Assembly (NCBI RefSeq): GCF_002934365.1
Contig: NZ_PTIY01000001.1
Span: 1-64,000, forward strand
From: Methylobacter tundripaludum
GTDB taxonomy: Bacteria; Pseudomonadota; Gammaproteobacteria; Methylococcales; Methylomonadaceae
Direction: 5' to 3'
Length of the DNA: 64,000 nucleotides
The notes under the pieces were generated by a model, which was not told where the DNA came from, did no database searches, and worked only from the letters and a program-made list of their open reading frames with translations. A program made the position numbers and the translations under genes. This document shows, one piece after another, positions 5,380 to 32,690 of this stretch; position 1 is the first letter of the stretch, and each line of letters opens with the position of its first letter.

Positions 5380-6039
5380 TTACAACCCGGCAATCGAAAA
5401 GAACGCTTGCTGTGCAACAAACATCGGATAAGCCAAAATCAGGCCCAAAACCTTCGTGTATAACAGCACCAGCAAAATAATAAACCCGAAACGCTCCAGG
5501 CGGTTGTATTGCCACGCCCAGTAACTGGGCAAAATGCCGGTCAGAATCCGGCTGCCATCCAACGGCGGAATGGGCAACAGATTAATCAGCGCCAGCACCA
5601 GGTTAATCGAAATACCGGCAACTCCGGTATAAATCAGCGGCAATGAAACGGCTTCGGCTTGCATACCTATCGTCACCCCCACCCTGGCTATTAATGCCCA
5701 ACCGACAGCCATCAACAAATTGGAAACAGGACCCGCCAAGGCGACTATCGCCATATCGCGCCTAGGATTTTTAAAATTCCTCGGATCGACGGGGACCGGC
5801 TTTGCCCAGCCGAAAATAAAACCGGAAAAAGAAAGCAGCAGCAAACCGGGGATAATAAGGGTTCCGAGCACATCGATATGCTTGATCGGGTTTAAGGTCA
5901 GCCTGCCCAGCATCGAAGCGGTGTTATCGCCATATTTTTTCGCTACCCAGCCATGCGCCACTTCATGCACGGTAATTGCGAAAATGACCGGCAAAATCCA
6001 GACCACTATGCGTTGCAACAGCGTCAATTCATCCATCAT
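5380..6039 (-). CDS. Site-2 protease family zinc metalloprotease (M50)
   Basis: This is an integral membrane protein of 219 aa with about five to six hydrophobic segments. The zinc motif HEVAH (H25-E26-H29) lies in the first helix and a second metal ligand in NLLPIPPLDG near 165. This is the compact S2P/YwhC-type rhomboid-sized M50 family without a PDZ domain. Such genes are commonly found between yciO and scpA; the substrate is unknown. Two ATG codons are adjacent at 6039 and 6036; GAGG lies about 12 bp upstream. It is spaced 13 bp from yciO, consistent with one operon. Confidence 0.9.
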   Translation of the reverse strand: MMDELTLLQRIVVWILPVIFAITVHEVAHGWVAKKYGDNTASMLGRLTLNPIKHIDVLGTLIIPGLLLLSFSGFIFGWAKPVPVDPRNFKNPRRDMAIVALAGPVSNLLMAVGWALIARVGVTIGMQAEAVSLPLIYTGVAGISINLVLALINLLPIPPLDGSRILTGILPSYWAWQYNRLERFGFIILLVLLYTKVLGLILAYPMFVAQQAFFSIAGL

Positions 6040-6052
6040 GCCTGCATCCTCA

Positions 6053-6673
6053 TCAGCTCAACATCGGCGCAAGGCCCTTGCCCTGCCTGATGATCTCGGC
6101 GCCATTAGCGGAAAACTCGATAATAGTCGTTTGTTCAAACTCAATAATACCGGCGTCAATGATCAAATCCAGCTCATGGTCCAATTTATCCTTGATTTCA
6201 TAAGGGTCGGTCAGCGCTTCATCCTCTCCCGGCAACATCAACGTAGAACTGAACAAAGGCTCGCCCAACTCCTGCACCAGCAATTGCGCGACTGGGTGGC
6301 CGGGAACGCGTATGCCTATGGTTTTTTTCTTCGGATGCTGCAACCGGCGCGGCACCTCGCGCGTAGCATCCAAAATAAAGGTGAAAGCGCCCGGCGTTAA
6401 CGCCTTAATCAACCGGTATGCATCATTGCTGATTTTGGTAAACATCGACACCTGCGCCAAGTCTTTACACACCAGAGTAAAATTATGCTTATCGTCCAAC
6501 TGCCGGATACGGCGGATTTTATCCAGCGCCTGCTTATCGCCTATATGACAGGCGATCGCATACGAAGAATCCGTCGGGTAAACGATAACGCCGCCCTTAC
6601 GGATTATTTCCACGGCGCGATGTATCAAACGCAGCTGCGGACTTTCTGGGTGTATTTCAAAAAACTGAGCCAT
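6053..6673 (-). CDS. yciO: YciO/Sua5-family L-threonylcarbamoyladenylate synthase-like protein
   Basis: It has 206 aa and a single YrdC/Sua5 fold domain: KGGVIVYPTDSSYAIAC for nucleotide and threonine binding, KHNFTLVCKDL, and a late GIRVPGHP loop. Family members condense Thr, bicarbonate and ATP to threonylcarbamoyl-AMP for t6A tRNA modification; the YciO branch is a paralogue with weak activity. Length without a Sua5 C-terminal domain and position at the head of the scpAB block support YciO rather than TsaC. Confidence 0.88.
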   Translation of the reverse strand: MAQFFEIHPESPQLRLIHRAVEIIRKGGVIVYPTDSSYAIACHIGDKQALDKIRRIRQLDDKHNFTLVCKDLAQVSMFTKISNDAYRLIKALTPGAFTFILDATREVPRRLQHPKKKTIGIRVPGHPVAQLLVQELGEPLFSSTLMLPGEDEALTDPYEIKDKLDHELDLIIDAGIIEFEQTTIIEFSANGAEIIRQGKGLAPMLS

Positions 6674-7020: not shown

Positions 7021-10000
7021 ATGACGATTTATGACCGCTCTTCACGATTTTCCAAAAACCTCTGGCTGACCTTGGCCATGTTTATTATTTTCGCGGTTGT
7101 TTTTGTCATGTACGTCCAGGCGGAAAAACAGATTGATCACTCCCTCGAAACTCGGCTTCAATCGTTCTTGCTGGCCGATGAATTGCGTCAGTCATCCGAC
7201 GATCTTTCCCGTATGGCCCGCAGCTACGTGACAACCGACAACCCCATTTACAAACAATATTTTCAGGAAATCCTCGACATTCGCGAAGGCAAAAAGCCCC
7301 GCCCCGTTGATTATCACAACATCTATTGGGATCTGGTGCTGACTGACGGCCGTCGACCGCGACCGGATAGCGGACAAACGATCGCCTTGCTGGAACTGAT
7401 GCGGCAAGCGGGATTTACCGACCAGGAATTAGCCAAACTGGCGGAAGCCAAGGCCAATTCCGACGCGTTGACCGACACCGAACATGCCGCGATGAAGTTG
7501 GTCGAATCAGCGCCGCCGGCTACCGAAGCCGACCGTATCAAAGCCAGCCGCATGCTGTCCGATGAGCATTATCATCAAGCCAAAGCCGACATCATGCGAC
7601 CGATCAACGAGCTCTACCAGATAATCAATCAGCGCAGCCTGGATGCCGTGCATACCGCCACGGCCACCGCCTCGCTTTTGCGTGCGGCGTTCATCGCCTT
7701 CGGTGTGCTGCTGGTCGTTCTGCTCTGGCGCAGTTACCGGGTTTTACATACCACGCTGGGCGGCTCGGTGGACAATCTGCAAAAGCATATCGCCCGCCTC
7801 GGCAGCGGGGATTTTGAACGCCCGATTCCCGTCGGCGAAGGCATGAAAAACAGCGTCATGGCCTGGCTATCGGAAACCCAAGCCAAACTGGCTCAGCTCG
7901 ATAACGAACACAAACAGGATGAAGCGAAAAATCAACGCCTGACCCAGCTTTACGCCGCACTGAGCCAGTGCAATCAAGCCATCGTGCGTTCAAATAATGA
8001 AGCCGAGCTGTTTGCGCAAATCTGCCGCGACGCGGTGATCTTCGGCGGCATGAAGATGGCGTGGATAGGCATGCTGGATGAACCGAGTAAAAAGGTCAGG
8101 CCGATTGCCTGTTATGGCAGCGGCACCGAATACCTGGACGGAATCAACATCTCGGTTGATGAACACGACCCTGCCGGGCGCGGCCCAACCGGAATCTCCA
8201 TGCGTGAAGACCGCCCCTTCTGGTGTCAGGATTTTCAGCACGACCCGGTCACGGCGGTCTGGCATGAACGCGGCTCAACGTATGGCTGGAAAGCGTCCGC
8301 CGCGCTACCGCTGCACAAAAACGGCGCGGTTATCGGCGTTTTCACACTCTATGCTTCCGGGATCGATTTCTTTGATGAACCCGCACGCAACCTGCTGGAT
8401 GAAATGGTGATGGACATCGACTTCGCGTTAAATAACTTTGAGCGCGAAGCACAACGCAATCATGCTGAAAATGCGCTTGCAGAGTCGCACAATCTACTCC
8501 AAACCATCATCGACACCGCGCCCATAAGCATTTTCTGGAAGGATAAGCAATGCCAGTACATGGGTTGCAACCCGGCTTTTGCCAGAGATGCGGGCGAAGC
8601 CTCGCTGAACAATATAATCGGCAAGAACGACTTTCAGCTGTGCTGGAAAGAACACGCCGAATTATATCAAGCCGACGACCAACAGGTCATGGCTACAGGC
8701 ATCGCCAAATTGGCCTACGAACAGCTTATAACCACGCCTGACGGAAAAATCACCTGGTTGCGCACGTCTAAAGTACCCCTTCAAAATCAGGCTAGCGAAG
8801 TTACCGGTGTTTTAGGGGTATCCGAGGACATCACCGAGCAAAAACAGGCCGAGGAACATATTCAGTACCTGGCGAATTTCGACCCGCTCACCGGGCTGCC
8901 GAATCGTACCCGGCTCAACGATCACCTCAAATACGCCCTCGGCTTGGCGAAGCGCACCAATGGACAATTGGCCTTGATGTTTCTTGACCTTGACCGTTTC
9001 AAGGACATTAACGACACCCTCGGCCACAGTGTCGGCGACGCCTTGCTGGTTGAGCTGGCGAAACGCCTGCGTGCAACTGTGTATAAAGAAGATACCGTGA
9101 CGCGCCTGGGCGGGGACGAATTCATTTTCCTGCTACCCGGCACCGAGGCGCGTGCCGCCGCTCATGTGGCGCAAAAACTGTTGGACGCCATCGCCGAGCC
9201 CTTTCGGATTGAGCATTACGACCTGACCCTGACCGCATCAATCGGCATTGCGCTCTATCCCGGCGATGGCGATGATCTGGAAACGCTGTCCAAGTCTGCC
9301 GATATCGCCATGTATCGCGCCAAACAGGAAGGCCGCCACAGCTTCTGTTTCTTTACTCCGGAAATGCATGCCCGTCTGGCGCGTAATCTACAGCTGGTCA
9401 GCGCCCTGCGCCAGGCCTTGAATCTCGGCCAATTTGAAATTCACTACCAGCCGCAAGTGTCCATAGCCGACGGCCGGATTATCGGGGCGGAAGCCTTGCT
9501 GCGTTGGCGGCATCCCGAACTGGGAACGGTGTCGCCCGCCGAATTCATCCCGGTCGCGGAAGACAGCGGACTGATTTTACCGATCGGGGAATGGGTGCTC
9601 AGGTGCGCCGTGCGGCAAGCGAAAGCATGGCTGGAAACCGGCTTAGCGCCATTGATCATGGCCGTAAATCTGTCGGTGGTGCAGTTTCGTCATCCCGACC
9701 TGCCCAAGCTGGTTACCCGCATACTCGACGAAGAAGGCTTGCCGCCCGAATATCTGGAACTCGAACTGACCGAAGGCGTGGCCATGCAGAACCCGCAAGG
9801 CGCGATCGACGTCATGAACAATCTGCACGAATGCGGCATCCGAATGTCTATTGATGACTTCGGCACCGGTTATTCGTCGCTGAGTTACCTAAAAAAGTTT
9901 AAGGTTTACAAGCTCAAGATCGACCAGTCTTTTGTGCGGGACATCAGCACCGACCCTGAAGACAAAGCTATTGTCATTGCCGTCATCAGCCTGGCCCGGA

Positions 10001-10155
10001 GCCTGGGCCTAAAAACCATTGCCGAAGGCGTGGAAACAGCGGAACAGTTGGCTTTCCTGCGTAATCAGGGGTGTAACGAGATGCAAGGCTATTTATTCAG
10101 CAAGCCGTTACCCGCTGAGCAGTTTGAAGCGTTACTGAAGCGGGATACTGATTAA
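7021..10155 (+). CDS. Membrane sensor with HAMP, GAF, PAS, GGDEF and EAL domains
   Basis: This is a likely bifunctional or EAL-dominant c-di-GMP enzyme of 1044 aa. I use ATG 7021 (MTIYDRSSRF), preceded by GAGAAG; upstream in-frame ATGs at 6976 and 6991 lack a clear site. Order: transmembrane helix at 14-34, periplasmic part to about 210, second helix (LLRAAFIAFGVLLVVLLW), HAMP-like linker, GAF (about 310-475), PAS (about 490-610; IFWKDKQCQYMGCNPAF), GGDEF (about 625-785) with intact RLGGDEFIF, and EAL (about 800-1040) with EALLRWRHPE and DDFGTGYSSL. The I-site RxxD before GGDEF is not conserved (YKED). The EAL metal and catalytic motifs look intact, so phosphodiesterase activity is likely. 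The ligand is unknown. Confidence 0.93.
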   Translation: MTIYDRSSRFSKNLWLTLAMFIIFAVVFVMYVQAEKQIDHSLETRLQSFLLADELRQSSDDLSRMARSYVTTDNPIYKQYFQEILDIREGKKPRPVDYHNIYWDLVLTDGRRPRPDSGQTIALLELMRQAGFTDQELAKLAEAKANSDALTDTEHAAMKLVESAPPATEADRIKASRMLSDEHYHQAKADIMRPINELYQIINQRSLDAVHTATATASLLRAAFIAFGVLLVVLLWRSYRVLHTTLGGSVDNLQKHIARLGSGDFERPIPVGEGMKNSVMAWLSETQAKLAQLDNEHKQDEAKNQRLTQLYAALSQCNQAIVRSNNEAELFAQICRDAVIFGGMKMAWIGMLDEPSKKVRPIACYGSGTEYLDGINISVDEHDPAGRGPTGISMREDRPFWCQDFQHDPVTAVWHERGSTYGWKASAALPLHKNGAVIGVFTLYASGIDFFDEPARNLLDEMVMDIDFALNNFEREAQRNHAENALAESHNLLQTIIDTAPISIFWKDKQCQYMGCNPAFARDAGEASLNNIIGKNDFQLCWKEHAELYQADDQQVMATGIAKLAYEQLITTPDGKITWLRTSKVPLQNQASEVTGVLGVSEDITEQKQAEEHIQYLANFDPLTGLPNRTRLNDHLKYALGLAKRTNGQLALMFLDLDRFKDINDTLGHSVGDALLVELAKRLRATVYKEDTVTRLGGDEFIFLLPGTEARAAAHVAQKLLDAIAEPFRIEHYDLTLTASIGIALYPGDGDDLETLSKSADIAMYRAKQEGRHSFCFFTPEMHARLARNLQLVSALRQALNLGQFEIHYQPQVSIADGRIIGAEALLRWRHPELGTVSPAEFIPVAEDSGLILPIGEWVLRCAVRQAKAWLETGLAPLIMAVNLSVVQFRHPDLPKLVTRILDEEGLPPEYLELELTEGVAMQNPQGAIDVMNNLHECGIRMSIDDFGTGYSSLSYLKKFKVYKLKIDQSFVRDISTDPEDKAIVIAVISLARSLGLKTIAEGVETAEQLAFLRNQGCNEMQGYLFSKPLPAEQFEALLKRDTD

Positions 10156-10658
10156 GCGTGAGAATTGGGCGTAGACAGGCGCAATGACTAACAAATAGGA
10201 AAAGCCCCGATCAGACCGGAGCCTCTGGAATTCATGGTGTCCAGGGGTGAAATCGAAGATTCTCAATTACACGCTCTAAAAAACTCCGGTACCGGCTCCG
10301 GCGTAACCAGAAGTAAAGCTTCGTTCAAAAAAAACGGCTATTGGCGCTTCAATAGACAAGACAGTGCCGGGAGCAGAACTACGCTATTCCCAACTGATCG
10401 CGAAGGCCATTGGTGAACATCCGGTTACGACCCTAAGCAGCCTGATCGGTTGGAGTTTTGATTGGCAACTCAGTTTCACATTGCAGACCCTCATAAAAGC
10501 AGCTAATTGGCGCCGATTGAAAATGGATTCAAATGATGGTGTCATTAGATTGTAACCTCATGGTTCATTGATGAATGCCCCCCCCGATTTGAGGGATGAG
10601 GTCATATTTTATTAGGTTAACCAGGTGCTTCGGGGCTTTTCTTCGCGCTAGCGGCTTC
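10156..10658. other. Gene-poor junction at the left border of the island
   Basis: About 500 bp without a convincing gene. It contains the degenerate tRNA-Phe-like segment (10228-10258) and a weak hairpin just before it (GCCCCG...CGGAGC, 10205-10223, one mismatch) that may be a decayed terminator. Small open frames at 10234-10555 have no recognisable domain. Confidence 0.55.
10228..10258 (-). repeat. Degenerate tRNA-Phe 3' end, candidate att site
   Basis: These 31 bp match 21894-21924 at 28 positions and in the same orientation. The latter segment is the 3' end of an intact tRNA-Phe gene plus seven bases of downstream flank. The shared block starts GGAATTCATGGTG and covers CCA, acceptor and T-arm sequence. 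After it, similarity continues weakly (GATTCTCA, then GCTCT at 10259-10278) if a gap is allowed, so it may be a decayed tRNA copy. Together with the tandem tRNA-Phe genes at 21.9-22.1 kb it would bracket an 11.6-kb island. No integrase gene is present. Confidence 0.55.
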
Positions 10659-10721
10659 GTCCAACCCTGGGCTCAAGCGGGACTGCATAAAAGCGCGCAG
10701 CCCCTTAGCTTCACGTTATAC
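10659..10721 (+). repeat. Integron attC-like recombination site
   Basis: The 63-bp site begins GTCCAAC (R'' type, RYYYAAC) and ends GTTATAC (R' type). The arms GGGCTCAAGCGGGACTG and CAGCCCCTTAGCTTC pair with a few bulges, with a short central loop around ATAAAAGCG. Length, imperfect palindrome and conserved ends are those of gene-cassette attC sites. The R' core is off consensus (GTTRRRY) at one base. No integron integrase is in the window. Confidence 0.62.
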
Positions 10722-26987: not shown

Positions 26988-28538
26988 GTGATCCGCCCTA
27001 AATTATTATTGCGCCTGATTCACATTAACTGGGTTCTGGTCTTTCACGGCCTGGACGAAATCGTTTTAAAAACCCATTTATTCCGGCCTGTCCGTTATTT
27101 GGCGGTTTTCTCGCCCAACTACTGGTTCAGAAGCTCGTCAGACTCCCGCGGCGCCAGAATCCGCCGCGCACTGGAAGATTTGGGGCCTATTTATGTCAAG
27201 TTCGGCCAGGCCTTGTCCACCCGGAAAGACCTGCTGCCCGAGGACATTGCCGACGAATTGGTCAAACTGCAAGACCGCGTCCCGCCCTTTGACAACGCGA
27301 TTGCCCGCAGCATTATTGAAAAAGAACTCGACATGTCTATCAGCGAGGCCTTTGCCGAGTTTGACGCCGAACCGCTGGCCTCCGCATCCGTCGCACAGGT
27401 CCATACCGCCGTCCTGCACAGCGGCGAAAGCGTCGTCGTTAAAGTGCTGCGCCCCGGCATAGAAAACCGCATCCGCTCGGACATAGGCCTGCTCTACGAA
27501 CTGGCCCGTTTTGCCGAACGCTTCTGGTCTGACGCAAGAAGATTGCGCCCTGTCGATGTCGTAGCCGAGTTTGAACGGACCACACTCGACGAACTCGACT
27601 TGGTCAGGGAAGCGGCCAATGCGGCCAAATTGCGCCGCAATTTCGAAAACTCCGACATTATCTATATACCGGAAATCCACTGGCCGTTAACGCGTCAAAA
27701 AGTCATGGTCATGGAGCGGATTCACGGCATACCGGTCGGTGAAATCGAACAGCTTCGGGTGGGCGGCGCCGATTTTAAATTACTCGCAGAACGCGGCGTG
27801 GAAATCTTTTTCACCCAGGTATTCAGGGATAATTTCTTTCATGCCGACATGCATCCGGGCAATATTTTCGTCGATCTGCCGGCCAAATATATTGCCGTCG
27901 ATTTCGGCATCATCGGCACCCTGTCGCCGTCCGACCAGCACTATCTCGCCAAAAACTTTCTGGCTTTTTTCAACCGGGATTACCGCAAAGTGGCCGAAAT
28001 GCATGTCGAATCCGGCTGGGTTTCCGAATCGACCCGGATAGAAGAGTTTGAATCCGCGATACGCAGCGTTTGCGAGCCGATCTTTGAAAAACCCCTGAAA
28101 GACATTTCCTTCGGACAATTGCTGCTGCGTTTATTCCAGACTGCGCGCCGTTTCGATATGCATGTGCAACCGCAACTGGTGCTGCTGCAAAAAACCCTGC
28201 TCAATATCGAGGGCCTGGGACGGCAGCTTTATCCCGAGCTGGACTTGTGGCAGACCGCCAAGCCGTTTCTTGAGAAATGGTTTCATCAGCGCGTAGGCCC
28301 TAAAGCCAAAATCGACAGGCTGATCAAACAGTTCCCCGACTTTGCCGAGCAGTTTCCCGAGATTCCTTCGCTGATTTACAAAGCGCTGGACAATGCCGCG
28401 AACGCCAAGCAACAAGCAGAAATGCAAAACAAGGAATTAATCCTGCTGCGCCGACAAATGGCTAGAAACCACCGCAGAACGGTCTGGGCGATGCTGATCA
28501 GCGCGGCGGCCATCAGCGCGGCGGTGCTATTTCGGTGA
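26988..28538 (+). CDS. ubiB: Ubiquinone biosynthesis regulatory kinase-like protein UbiB
   Basis: This is an ABC1/ADCK-type atypical kinase needed for ubiquinone synthesis, 516 aa. The start is GTG at 26988 with AAAGG upstream. It has the KxGQ-type motif [16 protein letters not shown], Ala-rich loop [21 protein letters not shown], catalytic [10 protein letters not shown] and metal-binding VDFGIIG. A C-terminal transmembrane helix ([19 protein letters not shown]) anchors it to the inner membrane. The native downstream neighbour may have been the thioredoxin-like gene now joined to rloB. Confidence 0.96.
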
Positions 28539-28698
28539 AGACACAAAAATAGAACACGAATACCCTAAAAGAAGATGCTTTCTGATTGATTGGAACCTTG
28601 CAACATTAAAATTACAAATTAAACAAATATACTTGATTTATCCTATATTTTGCATGAAACTTACAAAATATAATCCTATTATTTATCTCTAGATCATT

Positions 28699-29970
28699 AT
28701 GCTATTGCAATTTAGCGTTAACAATTTCCGTTCCATTAAAGATACAGTCACTTTTAGCATGAACACCGCTTCAAACGAAGCGAGCAAACATAGCTTTCAA
28801 GCAAGAGATTGCCACCTACTAAATAGCGCGGTGATATACGGAGCAAATGCCAGCGGCAAAAGCAATGTCTTAAAAGCCATGAGCTTCATGCGAAATTTGG
28901 TTTTAAACAAACCTAAAATTACCCAATCAACTGACGATTTACCGCATCAGCCTTTTCGTTTAAATACCGAAACGGAGCAGGCTTCCAGTTATTTTGAAAT
29001 CGTGTTTTTCTTAGAGGATGTTAAATATCGCTACGGTTTTGAAGCCGACAGTACAACTGTCTACGCTGAATGGCTTTATAGCGATGAAAAGAGCAAGGAA
29101 TCTCGATTATTTGAGCGCGATAACGAGCAGAATATTCATTACGTTAATAAGCAAAAATTTAAAGAAGGCGTAGGACTAAAAGTCCTCGACAATCATTTGT
29201 TTATTTGGAAGTGCGATCAAAATAACGGCGATATTTCAAAGAAAATCCTGCAATGGTTTAATAATTTTAATTTAATTAATGGGTTGGAAAACGAAGGTTA
29301 TTTACATATTGCTTTAAAGCAAATGGAAAATACCGATGCTAAGTCTGAGCTGCTTAAATTGGTTAAAATTGCCGACTTGGGAATCGACGAAATAGAAATT
29401 GAAGAAAATGATGTCCCTCAAGATATTATTAAAAACCTGCCTATTCCTGAAGAATTGAAGCAAAAAATGCTCGACGATGGCGGTGTAACTACAGTTGAAT
29501 TACAAACTCGTCATAAAAAATTTAGCTCTAAAAATCAACCAATAGGCGCAGTTTTATTTAAGTTAAGTGAGGATGAATCACAAGGTACACAAAAATTCTT
29601 CGCACTTTCCGCCCCAATTTTGGATACGTTAGATAAGGGAAAGGTGTTATTAATTGATGAACTTGATGCAAGTCTGCATCCGATGCTAACGGAATGTTTT
29701 ATCAAGCTCTTTAATAATAAAGATCTGAATAAACACAACGCACAATTGATTTTTGTCACTCATGATATTCACTTGTTATCAGTTCCAGAGCTTTTTGAAC
29801 GCGATCAAATTTGGTTTACTGAAAAAGACCAATACGGCAGCACCAATCTTTATTCATTACTTGAGTTTAGAAAAAAGAATAAAGGTAAAGATGTCAGGGC
29901 AACAGATAATTTAGAAAAGCATTATCTACAAGGACGATACGGCGCCGTGCCTTATATAGGTGAGATGTAA
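28699..29970 (+). CDS. RloA-like ABC-type ATPase (AbiLi-type defence ATPase)
   Basis: It has 423 aa. The N-terminus MLLQFSVNNFRSIKDTVTF is typical of AAA_15/AAA_21 (OLD/RecF-like) ATPases. Walker A is GANASGKSN (about 49-57) and Walker B with D-loop is VLLIDELDASLHP, followed by the switch His in LIFVTHDIHLL. The ATPase is split by a helical insertion. Paired with an overlapping RloB-like TOPRIM gene (TAATG overlap) it forms a RloAB/AbiL-type two-gene defence module, related in layout to OLD and PARIS systems. AT-rich, with codon use unlike flanking ubiB and pgk, so likely acquired. Confidence 0.85.
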   Translation: MLLQFSVNNFRSIKDTVTFSMNTASNEASKHSFQARDCHLLNSAVIYGANASGKSNVLKAMSFMRNLVLNKPKITQSTDDLPHQPFRLNTETEQASSYFEIVFFLEDVKYRYGFEADSTTVYAEWLYSDEKSKESRLFERDNEQNIHYVNKQKFKEGVGLKVLDNHLFIWKCDQNNGDISKKILQWFNNFNLINGLENEGYLHIALKQMENTDAKSELLKLVKIADLGIDEIEIEENDVPQDIIKNLPIPEELKQKMLDDGGVTTVELQTRHKKFSSKNQPIGAVLFKLSEDESQGTQKFFALSAPILDTLDKGKVLLIDELDASLHPMLTECFIKLFNNKDLNKHNAQLIFVTHDIHLLSVPELFERDQIWFTEKDQYGSTNLYSLLEFRKKNKGKDVRATDNLEKHYLQGRYGAVPYIGEM

Positions 29971-31223
29971 TGTCAAGAAGACAAGGTGCCGAAGGTTTTG
30001 AAAGTAACAAAAAAGCAAGAAAACGGGCAAAAATAGCCCAAAGAACACAAAACACTCAAAATGAGCGCGAAACTCTCATTATCGCATGTGAAGATAGCGT
30101 ATCAGCGCCCCTATATTTCAACGCTATTTTTGACGACCTCAAAATAAATCATGCCATTGCGGCATCCTCGCTGGTTATTGTTAATCATAAACATACCGAC
30201 CCTGCTGGCGTTTTAGATGACTTGCTTAATCATCCCAACTACCAAGACTTTGATCACCAATGGATAGTAATTGATCGTGACGAAGAAAGGACAAATGGCG
30301 GCGGGCATACTTTAGAAAGCTTTAACCAAGCGATAGCAAGGGCTAAGAATAAAAATATTAAAGTTGCTTATTCCAACCCTTGCTTTGAAATCTGGTATTT
30401 ACTGCATTTTGACTACAGAAATACAGCCATTGATAGGGATGAGCTTGTAGAACAGTTAGAACATAAGTATCAATATAAAAAGAATGCGTTATTTATCCTA
30501 AATCAAGATCAACAGGATGCTGCAATCAGAAATGCCGCCAACCTAATTCAATCATGGGTTGATACTTATGGCATCACAAAACCGGCAACGGATAATCCAA
30601 GTACAACTGTGCATGATTTAGTTGAGCAGTTGAATTCGTTTAAACAAGATCAACCACAAGCAGGTGCAAAAATGGTAACACTGGAAACGCCGATCTGTGA
30701 TTTCGGCAAAAAAGCCATCGATTTTGAATTGACCGGCGTTGACGGGCGAACCTGGACACTGCAACAGTGCATGGGCGAAAAGGGTCTGTTGGTGATGTTC
30801 ATCTGTAACCATTGCCCGTATGTCAAAGCCGTGCAAGACCGGATAGTCCGGGATGCGCGGGAACTTAAAGCGCTGGGGGTTGAAACGGTCGCAATCATGC
30901 CCAATGATACGGTCGAATACCCTGCCGATTCTTTCGACAACATAAAAAAACTGTCCGAACAGCTAGGTTTTTGTTTTCCTTACTTGCTTGATGAAACCCA
31001 GCAGGTCGCCAGGGCTTACGGCGCCATCTGTACGCCGGACTTTTTTGGCTATAATGCCGACTATGAACTGCAATACCGCGGACGACTGGACGCCAGCCGC
31101 AAGGAAACCGCGCCGGAAGGCGCCAAACGTGAATTATTCGAGGCGATGAAGCTGATTGCCGAAACCGGCCACGGCCCCAAAGAGCAAATCAACAGCATCG
31201 GCTGCTCGATCAAATGGAAGTAG
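29970..31223 (+). CDS. Chimeric ORF: RloB-like TOPRIM protein fused to a thioredoxin-like domain
   Basis: It has 417 aa. Residues 1 to about 230 are RloB/AbiLii-like: a basic N-terminus (KKARKRAKIAQRTQ), TOPRIM-type acidic motifs (IIACEDS, then VIDRDE) and NPCFEIWYLLHFDYR. From Met235 (ATG 30672) the frame continues as a thioredoxin/AhpC-like protein with FICNHCPYVKAVQD (CxxC), MPNDTVEYPADSFD and FFGYNADYELQYRGRL. AGG lies nine bases before that ATG, so the redoxin was probably a separate gene whose start is still usable. The rloAB insertion lost its stop codon and joined in frame. Composition changes at the junction from AT-rich to the host type. Confidence 0.82.
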   Translation: MSRRQGAEGFESNKKARKRAKIAQRTQNTQNERETLIIACEDSVSAPLYFNAIFDDLKINHAIAASSLVIVNHKHTDPAGVLDDLLNHPNYQDFDHQWIVIDRDEERTNGGGHTLESFNQAIARAKNKNIKVAYSNPCFEIWYLLHFDYRNTAIDRDELVEQLEHKYQYKKNALFILNQDQQDAAIRNAANLIQSWVDTYGITKPATDNPSTTVHDLVEQLNSFKQDQPQAGAKMVTLETPICDFGKKAIDFELTGVDGRTWTLQQCMGEKGLLVMFICNHCPYVKAVQDRIVRDARELKALGVETVAIMPNDTVEYPADSFDNIKKLSEQLGFCFPYLLDETQQVARAYGAICTPDFFGYNADYELQYRGRLDASRKETAPEGAKRELFEAMKLIAETGHGPKEQINSIGCSIKWK

Positions 31224-31244
31224 GGATCGTGCATGAAATAACTT

Positions 31245-31323
31245 GAGCAAATTTTATTTTTAAACCATGAAGGATTTAAGTCTTTATGCGCTTCATGGTG
31301 ATTGCTTAAATTAATTTATGCAT
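31245..31323 (-). repeat. Dispersed palindromic repeat, copy 2
   Basis: Reverse-complement copy of the 25290-25386 element, sharing ATGCATAAATTAATTTAAGC, the ACCATGAAG arm, GACTTAAATCCTTC and GGTTTAAAAATAA, but lacking about 18 central bases. It lies between the redoxin part and pgk; no ORF is supported. The rest of the 297-bp gap to pgk likely holds the pgk promoter. Confidence 0.85.
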
Positions 31324-31520
31324 GTTCCTTAAATTAACCCTAAAAAACAAATGGAGCATGGATGTAACTGATAATTACGGATAAAAAACCCGTTTAAATC
31401 CGTCTAATCTGTGTCATCCGTCGACTGCATGAATGCAGGAGGTAGAGCAATGCAGGAGCAATTGCCGAGTTCCATTGAGAAAGCTAATACCTACACAACC
31501 CACAACAATGAGAGCGTAAT

Positions 31521-32690
31521 ATGTCAATTAAGAGAATGGTAGATCTGGACTTGTCAGGCAAACGGGTGTTAATCCGTCAGGATCTGAACGTACCGGTAAA
31601 AAACGGCAAAGTGACCAGCGACATTCGTATCCAGGCCAGCGTACCGACCATTGAAAAAGCCCTGGCTGCTGGCGCGGCTGTCATGCTGATGTCGCATCTG
31701 GGCCGTCCGGTCGAAGGACAGTACGACGAAGAGTCTTCGTTGAAACCGGTCGCCGAACGTTTATCCGAGTTGCTGGGCAAGCCGGTCAGACTGGAAAAAG
31801 ACTGGATCGACGGCATCACTATCCAGCCGGGCGAAGTCGTGCTGTGCGAAAACGTGCGTTTTAATGCCGGCGAAGGCAAAAACAACGACGATCTGGGCAA
31901 AAAAATGGCGACTCTTTGCGACATCTTCGTGATGGATGCATTCGGCACCGCACACAGAGCGCAGTCCTCAACCCACAGCGTGGCTAAATTCGCGCCGATT
32001 GCCTGTGCGGGACCGTTATTGGCCAGCGAACTGGACGCACTGGGCAAAGCCCTGGAAACACCGACTAAGCCGCTGGTTGCGATTGTCGGCGGTTCTAAAG
32101 TATCGACCAAATTAACCGTATTAGAATCTTTATCGGAAAAAGTCGACCAGTTGATCGTCGGCGGCGGCATCGCCAACACCTTTATTGCGGCAGCCGGTTT
32201 CCCGGTCGGCAAATCGCTGTATGAACCCGATCTGCTTGATGAAGCCAAACGACTGATGGCGGCAGCCAAAAGCAACGGTTCCGATATTCCCGTCCCTGTC
32301 GACGTGGTTTGCGCCAAGGAATTTTCAGAAACCGCAGTCGCCACCGTTAAAAATGTCGCCGATGTCGAAGCCGACGACATGATTATGGACATAGGCCCTG
32401 AAACCGCAAAACAGTATGCCGAAATTTTAAAAACCGCAGGCACCATCGTCTGGAACGGTCCGGTCGGCGTATTTGAATTCGACCAGTTCGGCGAAGGCAC
32501 CAAGGCCCTTGCGGCGGCAATCGCCGAAAGTCCTGCTTTTTCGATTGCAGGCGGCGGCGATACTTTGGCGGCTATCGACAAATACGGCATTAACGATGAC
32601 GTGTCTTACACCTCGACCGGCGGCGGCGCTTTTCTTGAATTTCTTGAAGGCAAAGAACTTCCAGCCGTTTCTGTGTTAAAATCGCGATAA
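31521..32690 (+). CDS. pgk: Phosphoglycerate kinase
   Basis: This cytosolic glycolytic/gluconeogenic enzyme interconverts 1,3-bisphosphoglycerate and ADP with 3-phosphoglycerate and ATP; 389 aa, full length. Signatures are [27 protein letters not shown], substrate Arg in [27 protein letters not shown]-type loop, GGSKVSTKL, and the C-terminal nucleotide loop [13 protein letters not shown] with [15 protein letters not shown]. The spacing of GAGAGCG before ATG 31521 is acceptable. It stands alone here, with gap or epd not adjacent. Confidence 0.97.

Follow-up and report, generated by a model that had tools for sequence, protein, structure and literature searches.

Why does a putative phage-defense protein of the RloB type run, with no stop codon between them, into an AhpC/TSA-type redoxin at positions 29970 to 31223 of the 64,000-nucleotide stretch of Methylobacter tundripaludum DNA analyzed here (the window)? 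The first-pass annotation, made from the sequence alone, had offered two answers: that a defense module came to lie upstream of the redoxin gene with its stop lost, so that both a long chimera and, from the internal start, a short redoxin are made, or that the fusion is functional and couples redox state to a nuclease. In our judgment it is probable that a cassette of the AbiL type inserted between ubiB and the redoxin gene, that such cassettes often lodge immediately before start codons in core operons, and that the two frames were joined by chance, with the redoxin part as a passenger tail.

The frame itself is as had been described: it is open from the ATG at 29970 to the TAG at 31223 of the forward strand, passing through ATG 30672, and encodes 417 amino acids in which Pfam finds both domains, RloB at residues 37-221 (PF13707, E = 1.7e-36) and AhpC-TSA at residues 246-370 (E = 7.5e-18). 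We assigned 29970-30653 to the rloB, or AbiLii-type effector, part, which also matches AbiLii of PADLOC (E = 1.1e-24); the Pfam match stops at residue 221 and the C-termini of close sisters lie a few residues beyond. The native redoxin (30672-31223, forward strand, 183 amino acids) has its own start, preceded by the ribosome site AGGTG at 30662-30666, which was noted at first pass and is kept in relatives that lack the module. The calculated masses of 47.4 kDa for the fused protein and 20.6 kDa for the redoxin by itself agree with the approximately 47 and 20 kDa that had been expected. Upstream on the same strand are rloA (28699-29970, 423 amino acids), whose stop codon overlaps the rloB start as TAATG, and ubiB of the ABC1 kinase family (26988-28538; PF03109, E = 4.7e-79), the native left neighbor. 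The native right neighbor, also on the forward strand, is an ORF at 31521-32690 that we take to be pgk, with a DNA match at the redoxin loci of 21 relatives.

To establish the ancestral arrangement we took advantage of related genomes. The fused protein was matched in 22 of the 23 genomes of a genus search (its own included), and in 20 genus relatives ubiB and the redoxin gene are adjacent without any module, separated by gaps of 27-465 nt; the rloAB pair is therefore an insertion. In these 20 relatives the redoxin stands alone and is 80-96% identical to that of the window. Alignment with five empty sites places the right border at approximately 30648-30661, with native sequence from 30649-30662 onward, so that the junction at 30649-30671 (forward strand) comprises the end of the insert and the native redoxin leader with its ribosome site. 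The best hint of a left border comes from two of the five empty sites, L003 and L006, which match for 16-17 nt up to 28561; in the remaining ones the match is confined to ubiB or extends for only 7 nt. These alignments indicate that part of the native gap was replaced, whereas the redoxin ribosome site and start codon, conserved in the relatives without the module, were retained. GC content steps from about 0.52 to 0.34-0.39 across the module. The 20 empty sites, the native ribosome site, and the GC step fit the first of the two original answers, in which the module landed upstream and lost its stop. A search for terminal repeats in two short regions at the borders of the insert turned up, besides the arms of the palindrome described below, only short ones such as chance would produce.

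Downstream of the redoxin gene, at 31340-31430, there is a repeat-like stretch (GTAACTGATAATTACGGATAAAAAACCCGTTTAAATCCGTCTAATCTGTGTCATCC), and by eye we recognized closely similar sequence between ubiB and the redoxin gene in L002, L003, and L006.

Because the genome is a draft in 45 contigs, we considered whether an error of sequencing or assembly at the junction hides a change of frame, and we regard this as quite improbable. Merely 10-23 nt or so of native leader are left before ATG 30672, and both of the other frames that lead out of the rloB end also pass the redoxin start and stop inside the redoxin gene; a single indel would consequently yield an overlap of the type found in L078 and L097 rather than a separate end followed by a spacer. 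Furthermore, another genome (L076) carries the same kind of fusion.

That second fusion came from a search for other long RloB frames. In the family-wide search 63 of 237 genomes were positive (the window's own included), and all of the frames listed were at most 286 amino acids long except those of the window (419 as listed) and of G143 (670). In a class-wide draw 30 of 369 genomes were positive (own included), and the 29 other RloB frames measured 101-258 amino acids. In a scan of named genomes, which partly overlaps the 237-genome family search, we kept the best 80 of 440 RloB relatives; among these only L076 (650 amino acids) and L102 (322 amino acids) exceeded 260 amino acids from the start of the match, with three frames (L075, L095, and L116) cut by contig ends. 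The G143 frame is that of L038/L076, from Methyloprofundus GLR996, where, immediately after purH, the RloB frame continues without a break into purD (TIGR00877, E = 2.7e-173), and where the native start codon of purD is retained inside the fused frame. Since purD beside purH is a different host gene, the RloB-PurD fusion is an event separate from that in the window. In a tree of 33 RloBs, many of whose inner forks are weak and whose bootstrap had not settled, L076 groups with L077 (96/91) and the window falls in a different, less firmly supported group (91/98). A fused RloB frame is thus rare, not unique, and the search for further fusions to AhpC/TSA proteins returned none among the best 80 of 440 relatives, the 237 family genomes, or the 369 class genomes.

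Two of the other loci have extended RloB frames of their own: L102:1073-2041 encodes an RloB with a long additional C-terminal tail (322 amino acids overall), and the frame at L075:4827-5541, which has an extended tail and is still open where the contig stops, could be another fusion. At L121 a redoxin gene is followed, 2.6 kb further on, by a more distant RloAB pair from a gammaproteobacterium (5538-6101 and 8691-10672), in separate frames; this redoxin is of the same family and 66% identical to that of the window, and its pairing with RloAB is probably coincidence.

A functional fusion, in which the redoxin domain would sense redox state and control the RloB nuclease, has in its favor that both domains are complete within one open frame and that the redoxin is under purifying selection. 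The dN/dS ratio is 0.05-0.07 in six comparisons with the window, but the ratios between two pairs of stand-alone relatives are 0.04 and 0.06; by these sequence comparisons, the redoxin of the window is under the same constraint as its unfused relatives. The absence of a second RloB-redoxin fusion among the genomes and loci searched, and the attachment of PurD in the sister fusion, likewise speak against a dedicated redox control.

The reading frames at other module junctions bear on this question as well. We compared the window with its 36 best loci (L068-L103, RloB 38-75% identical), for a set of 37 close modules, two of which (L075 and L095) are cut by contig ends. Ten of the 37 rloB genes have no stop before the start of the next gene, two of them in frame (the window and L076) and eight out of frame, with several start codons of the next genes being assumed, notably that of L085 (TTG). 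The out-of-frame stops lie within the next gene in L078 (holB), L082 (ribF), L087 and L091 (dgt), L085, and L097, and straddle its start codon in L080 (cas4) and L099 (ribF); in L091 dgt itself is interrupted after 23 codons. One site is common to L082 and L099, which belong to well separated branches of the RloB tree, and another to L087 and L091, which are only weakly separated; these junctions may therefore not be independent. With a probability of 1/3 for each frame, the chance of two or fewer in-frame junctions is 0.30 for ten cases and 0.47 for two of eight, when the shared sites are counted once. Two in ten therefore fits what random frame would give. With the in-frame joins at chance level and PurD in the only other recognized long fusion, the proposed coupling of redox state to a nuclease is unsupported, and we consider a functional fusion highly improbable. 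The fusion looks like a by-product of where the cassette lodged and not like a purpose-built, redox-controlled nuclease.

Eight further close modules (L068, L069, L072, L074, L079, L081, L086, and L101) have their own rloB stop 1-42 nt ahead of the next gene, although the start of that gene is uncertain in L069 and the L072 junction was set by eye; in the other 19 the gap is longer, there is no gene close downstream, or the contig ends. Abutting of the following gene is also seen at times among distant RloBs. What we claim is accordingly recurrence, not enrichment, and abutting is not proven to be special to the close clade.

An rloB gene without its own stop before the next gene might also indicate that the module is decaying and that the fusion is a dead end with an inactive RloB. 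However, rloA and rloB of the window are both full length with their conserved motifs present. Among 31 aligned RloBs D102 is invariant and E41 and D104 occur in at least 90%, residues that we presume, from the TOPRIM pattern (E then DxD), to be those of a TOPRIM site; a profile search among solved chains, taken up to E = 1, matched none. In comparison with the close relative L068, dN is well below dS for both rloB (0.16 versus 2.06) and rloA (0.10 versus 1.21), values that come from this one relative and with dS near saturation. We hold decay to be improbable on these grounds.

The module appears to bring a regulatory signal with it. At 28648-28668, upstream of rloA, lies the palindrome TTTTGCA-TGAAACT-TACAAAA, which we propose as an operator at the module promoter, and through which the module may regulate itself. 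The form TTTTGTA-N7-TACAAAA, with at most two mismatches, precedes rloA in 24 of 26 close modules, where shuffled sequence would give 0.76; the 26 comprise the window and the 25 of the 36 close loci that had enough upstream DNA and were listed. Nine modules from which the palindrome was first picked by eye are included in this count; of the 17 beyond them, 15 have it. It is missing in L089 and L096, and the best match in L094 is at an unusual place. Among 43 distant modules there was none, in a search that used the 7-nt spacer only, extrapolated two of the start positions, and left base composition unmatched. Within its own genome, 28648-28668 is the only match to TTTTGYATN5TTACAAAA with at most one mismatch. 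In 11 of the 15 sites for which it was computed, the palindrome begins 6-62 nt past the upstream stop codon (6 nt in L078, 7 in L097, 12 in L085, 21 in L068, and 29 in L072), and these short distances suggest that the left end of the cassette often lies at the palindrome; the distance is 109-235 nt in L069, L076, L100, and the window. A sigma-70 promoter scan called 8 sites, compared with 8.0 in shuffles, and no terminator-like site was seen on the forward strand from 28450 to 31600.

These features suggest the following course of events. A cassette made up of a promoter with its palindromic putative operator, rloA, and rloB would have inserted in place of part of the native gap, with its right end at the redoxin ribosome site, so that no rloB stop precedes the redoxin start and the frame happens to continue. 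The rloAB genes would probably be transcribed both from their own promoter and by read-through from ubiB. Translation would probably yield the normal redoxin from ATG 30672 and also, because no stop intervenes, an RloB-redoxin chimera of about 47 kDa, which most likely carries its redoxin tail as a passenger. Having neither a terminator nor spare 3' DNA, such an insertion would be non-polar, which could explain how flush junctions survive within operons.

By analogy with AbiL and PARIS, RloB may be a TOPRIM-like nuclease that the RloA ATPase holds or triggers at phage infection. The pair resembles AbiL (AbiLi/AbiLii, a Lactococcus abortive infection system) and RloAB in being a two-gene unit of an ATPase and an RloB-domain protein: the AAA-type ATPase lies directly upstream of the effector and matches both PF13304 (AAA_21, E = 1.1e-43) and AbiLi of PADLOC (E = 1.2e-100), and the effector carries the PF13707 domain and the conserved acidic residues. 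These matches bear out the earlier call of an RloA/RloB-type pair between ubiB and the redoxin gene. An rloB that ends before the next gene, a usual but not defining trait of these systems, is lacking in the window and in nine other close modules. Unlike AbiL/RloAB, the module of the window is chromosomal, sits between ubiB and a redoxin gene to which its RloB is fused, and has a palindrome that, among the modules compared, only its own clade shares.

RloB is described in PMC10440598 as known from type I restriction operons and as related to OLD-TOPRIM proteins, with AAA proteins acting as antitoxins of their TOPRIM partners in related pairs. A toxicity screen, as reported in PMC3985639, found that AbiLii of Fusobacterium inhibited E. 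coli and that of Lactococcus did not, and that Fusobacterium AbiLi showed no antitoxic effect. From these accounts we infer that RloA acts on RloB at infection, as a restraint or as a trigger; the result of PMC3985639 speaks against a simple neutralization. PARIS (AriA/AriB) similarly combines an AAA_21 ATPase with a TOPRIM-like effector, and PADLOC AriA also matches RloA (E = 4e-43), but the effector of the window matches RloB in Pfam and only AbiLii, not AriB, in PADLOC up to E = 1. AriB cuts tRNA, according to PMC12409363. As judged from its sequence, the module of the window is a member of AbiL/RloAB with an unusual, recurrent seating in core operons and a putative defense role.

Plasmids and phages were considered as sources and rejected. 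RloB relatives at E <= 1e-5 numbered 15 plasmid and 2 phage records, all less than 60% identical; a distant blastn search of the module against plasmids found nothing, and viral contigs gave a single weak partial match.

Many of the closest modules lie inside co-directional runs of host genes. The junctions include nirC-like/rloAB/cytochrome d1-domain gene, rloAB/bluB (in two genomes), ligA/rloAB/SirB, sufB/rloAB/sufC, tmk/rloAB/holB, and purH/rloAB-purD, and in Campylobacterota tlyA/rloAB/ribF, rloAB/dgt, and rloAB/cas4. Family matches confirmed purH, purD, sufC, tmk, holB, ribF, tlyA, dgt, the d1 domain, and SirB, and the cas4 match was 2.5 bits under the cut-off; bluB, ligA, nirC, sufB, and the remaining neighbors are named by recognition and thus presumptive. 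Some close modules are beside what we take to be insertion sequences, hsdM-like genes, or phage-tail-like genes. The RloB-PurD module of L076 belongs to the same cassette clade as the window and has the same type of junction, and differs in its host gene and RloB tree group. The interrupted gene pairs are commonly intact elsewhere: of 20 other genomes, 18 have purH and purD adjacent with no module between them, 9-277 nt apart, and in the remaining two the flank showed no purH; tmk and holB are likewise adjacent in 18 of 20, mostly overlapping or at most 20 nt apart (of the other two, one has HicBA in a 529-nt gap and one has 278 nt between the genes). We found neither an RloB-host gene fusion nor a flush operon insertion described in the titles and abstract openings of open-licence papers.

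A broader reading, which we offer tentatively and think rather unlikely as it stands, is that the operator, rloA, and rloB form a defined mobile cassette with fixed ends, running from the palindrome on its left to the final sense codons of rloB on its right, that lacks a terminator and often also a stop and is placed at intercistronic junctions before the starts of core genes in methanotrophs and Campylobacterota. Were it true, deletion of the cassette would be difficult wherever its nuclease overlaps or is fused to a gene such as purD, holB, or ribF. The fusion in the window, as most likely a passenger effect, counsels caution against taking chimeric ORFs for new domain architectures. The wider pattern is weightier: a putative defense cassette with its own conserved palindrome, at many sites lacking a stop ahead of the next gene, is found repeatedly in core operons. 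It offers a testable account of how defense genes may spread outside islands and mobile elements while host operons stay unbroken, and of why essential genes come to be fused with some of them or coupled to them in translation.

Other small modules occupy some of the same gaps in related methanotrophs. sufB and sufC are adjacent without a module in 11 of 15 genomes (gaps of 26-1269 nt; 413 nt in L216), and in L206-L209 the gap holds a PIN-type pair, Uma2, or HicAB, with the module of L209 assigned by its likeness to L206 and the matches of L208 HicA and L206 DUF2281 below cut-offs. Together with rloAB in L072, these different modules make the gap look like an insertion hotspot; the varied modules occur within one methanotroph genus, inside the suf operon. 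The HicAB, PIN-type toxin-antitoxin, and Uma2 modules of the sufB/sufC and tmk/holB gaps are likewise small, but their proteins are unrelated to RloAB and none is fused in their five loci. At L175:968-1501 (G024), between tmk and holB, the hicA stop of the HicBA module overlaps the holB start, a placement as flush as that of rloAB in L078.
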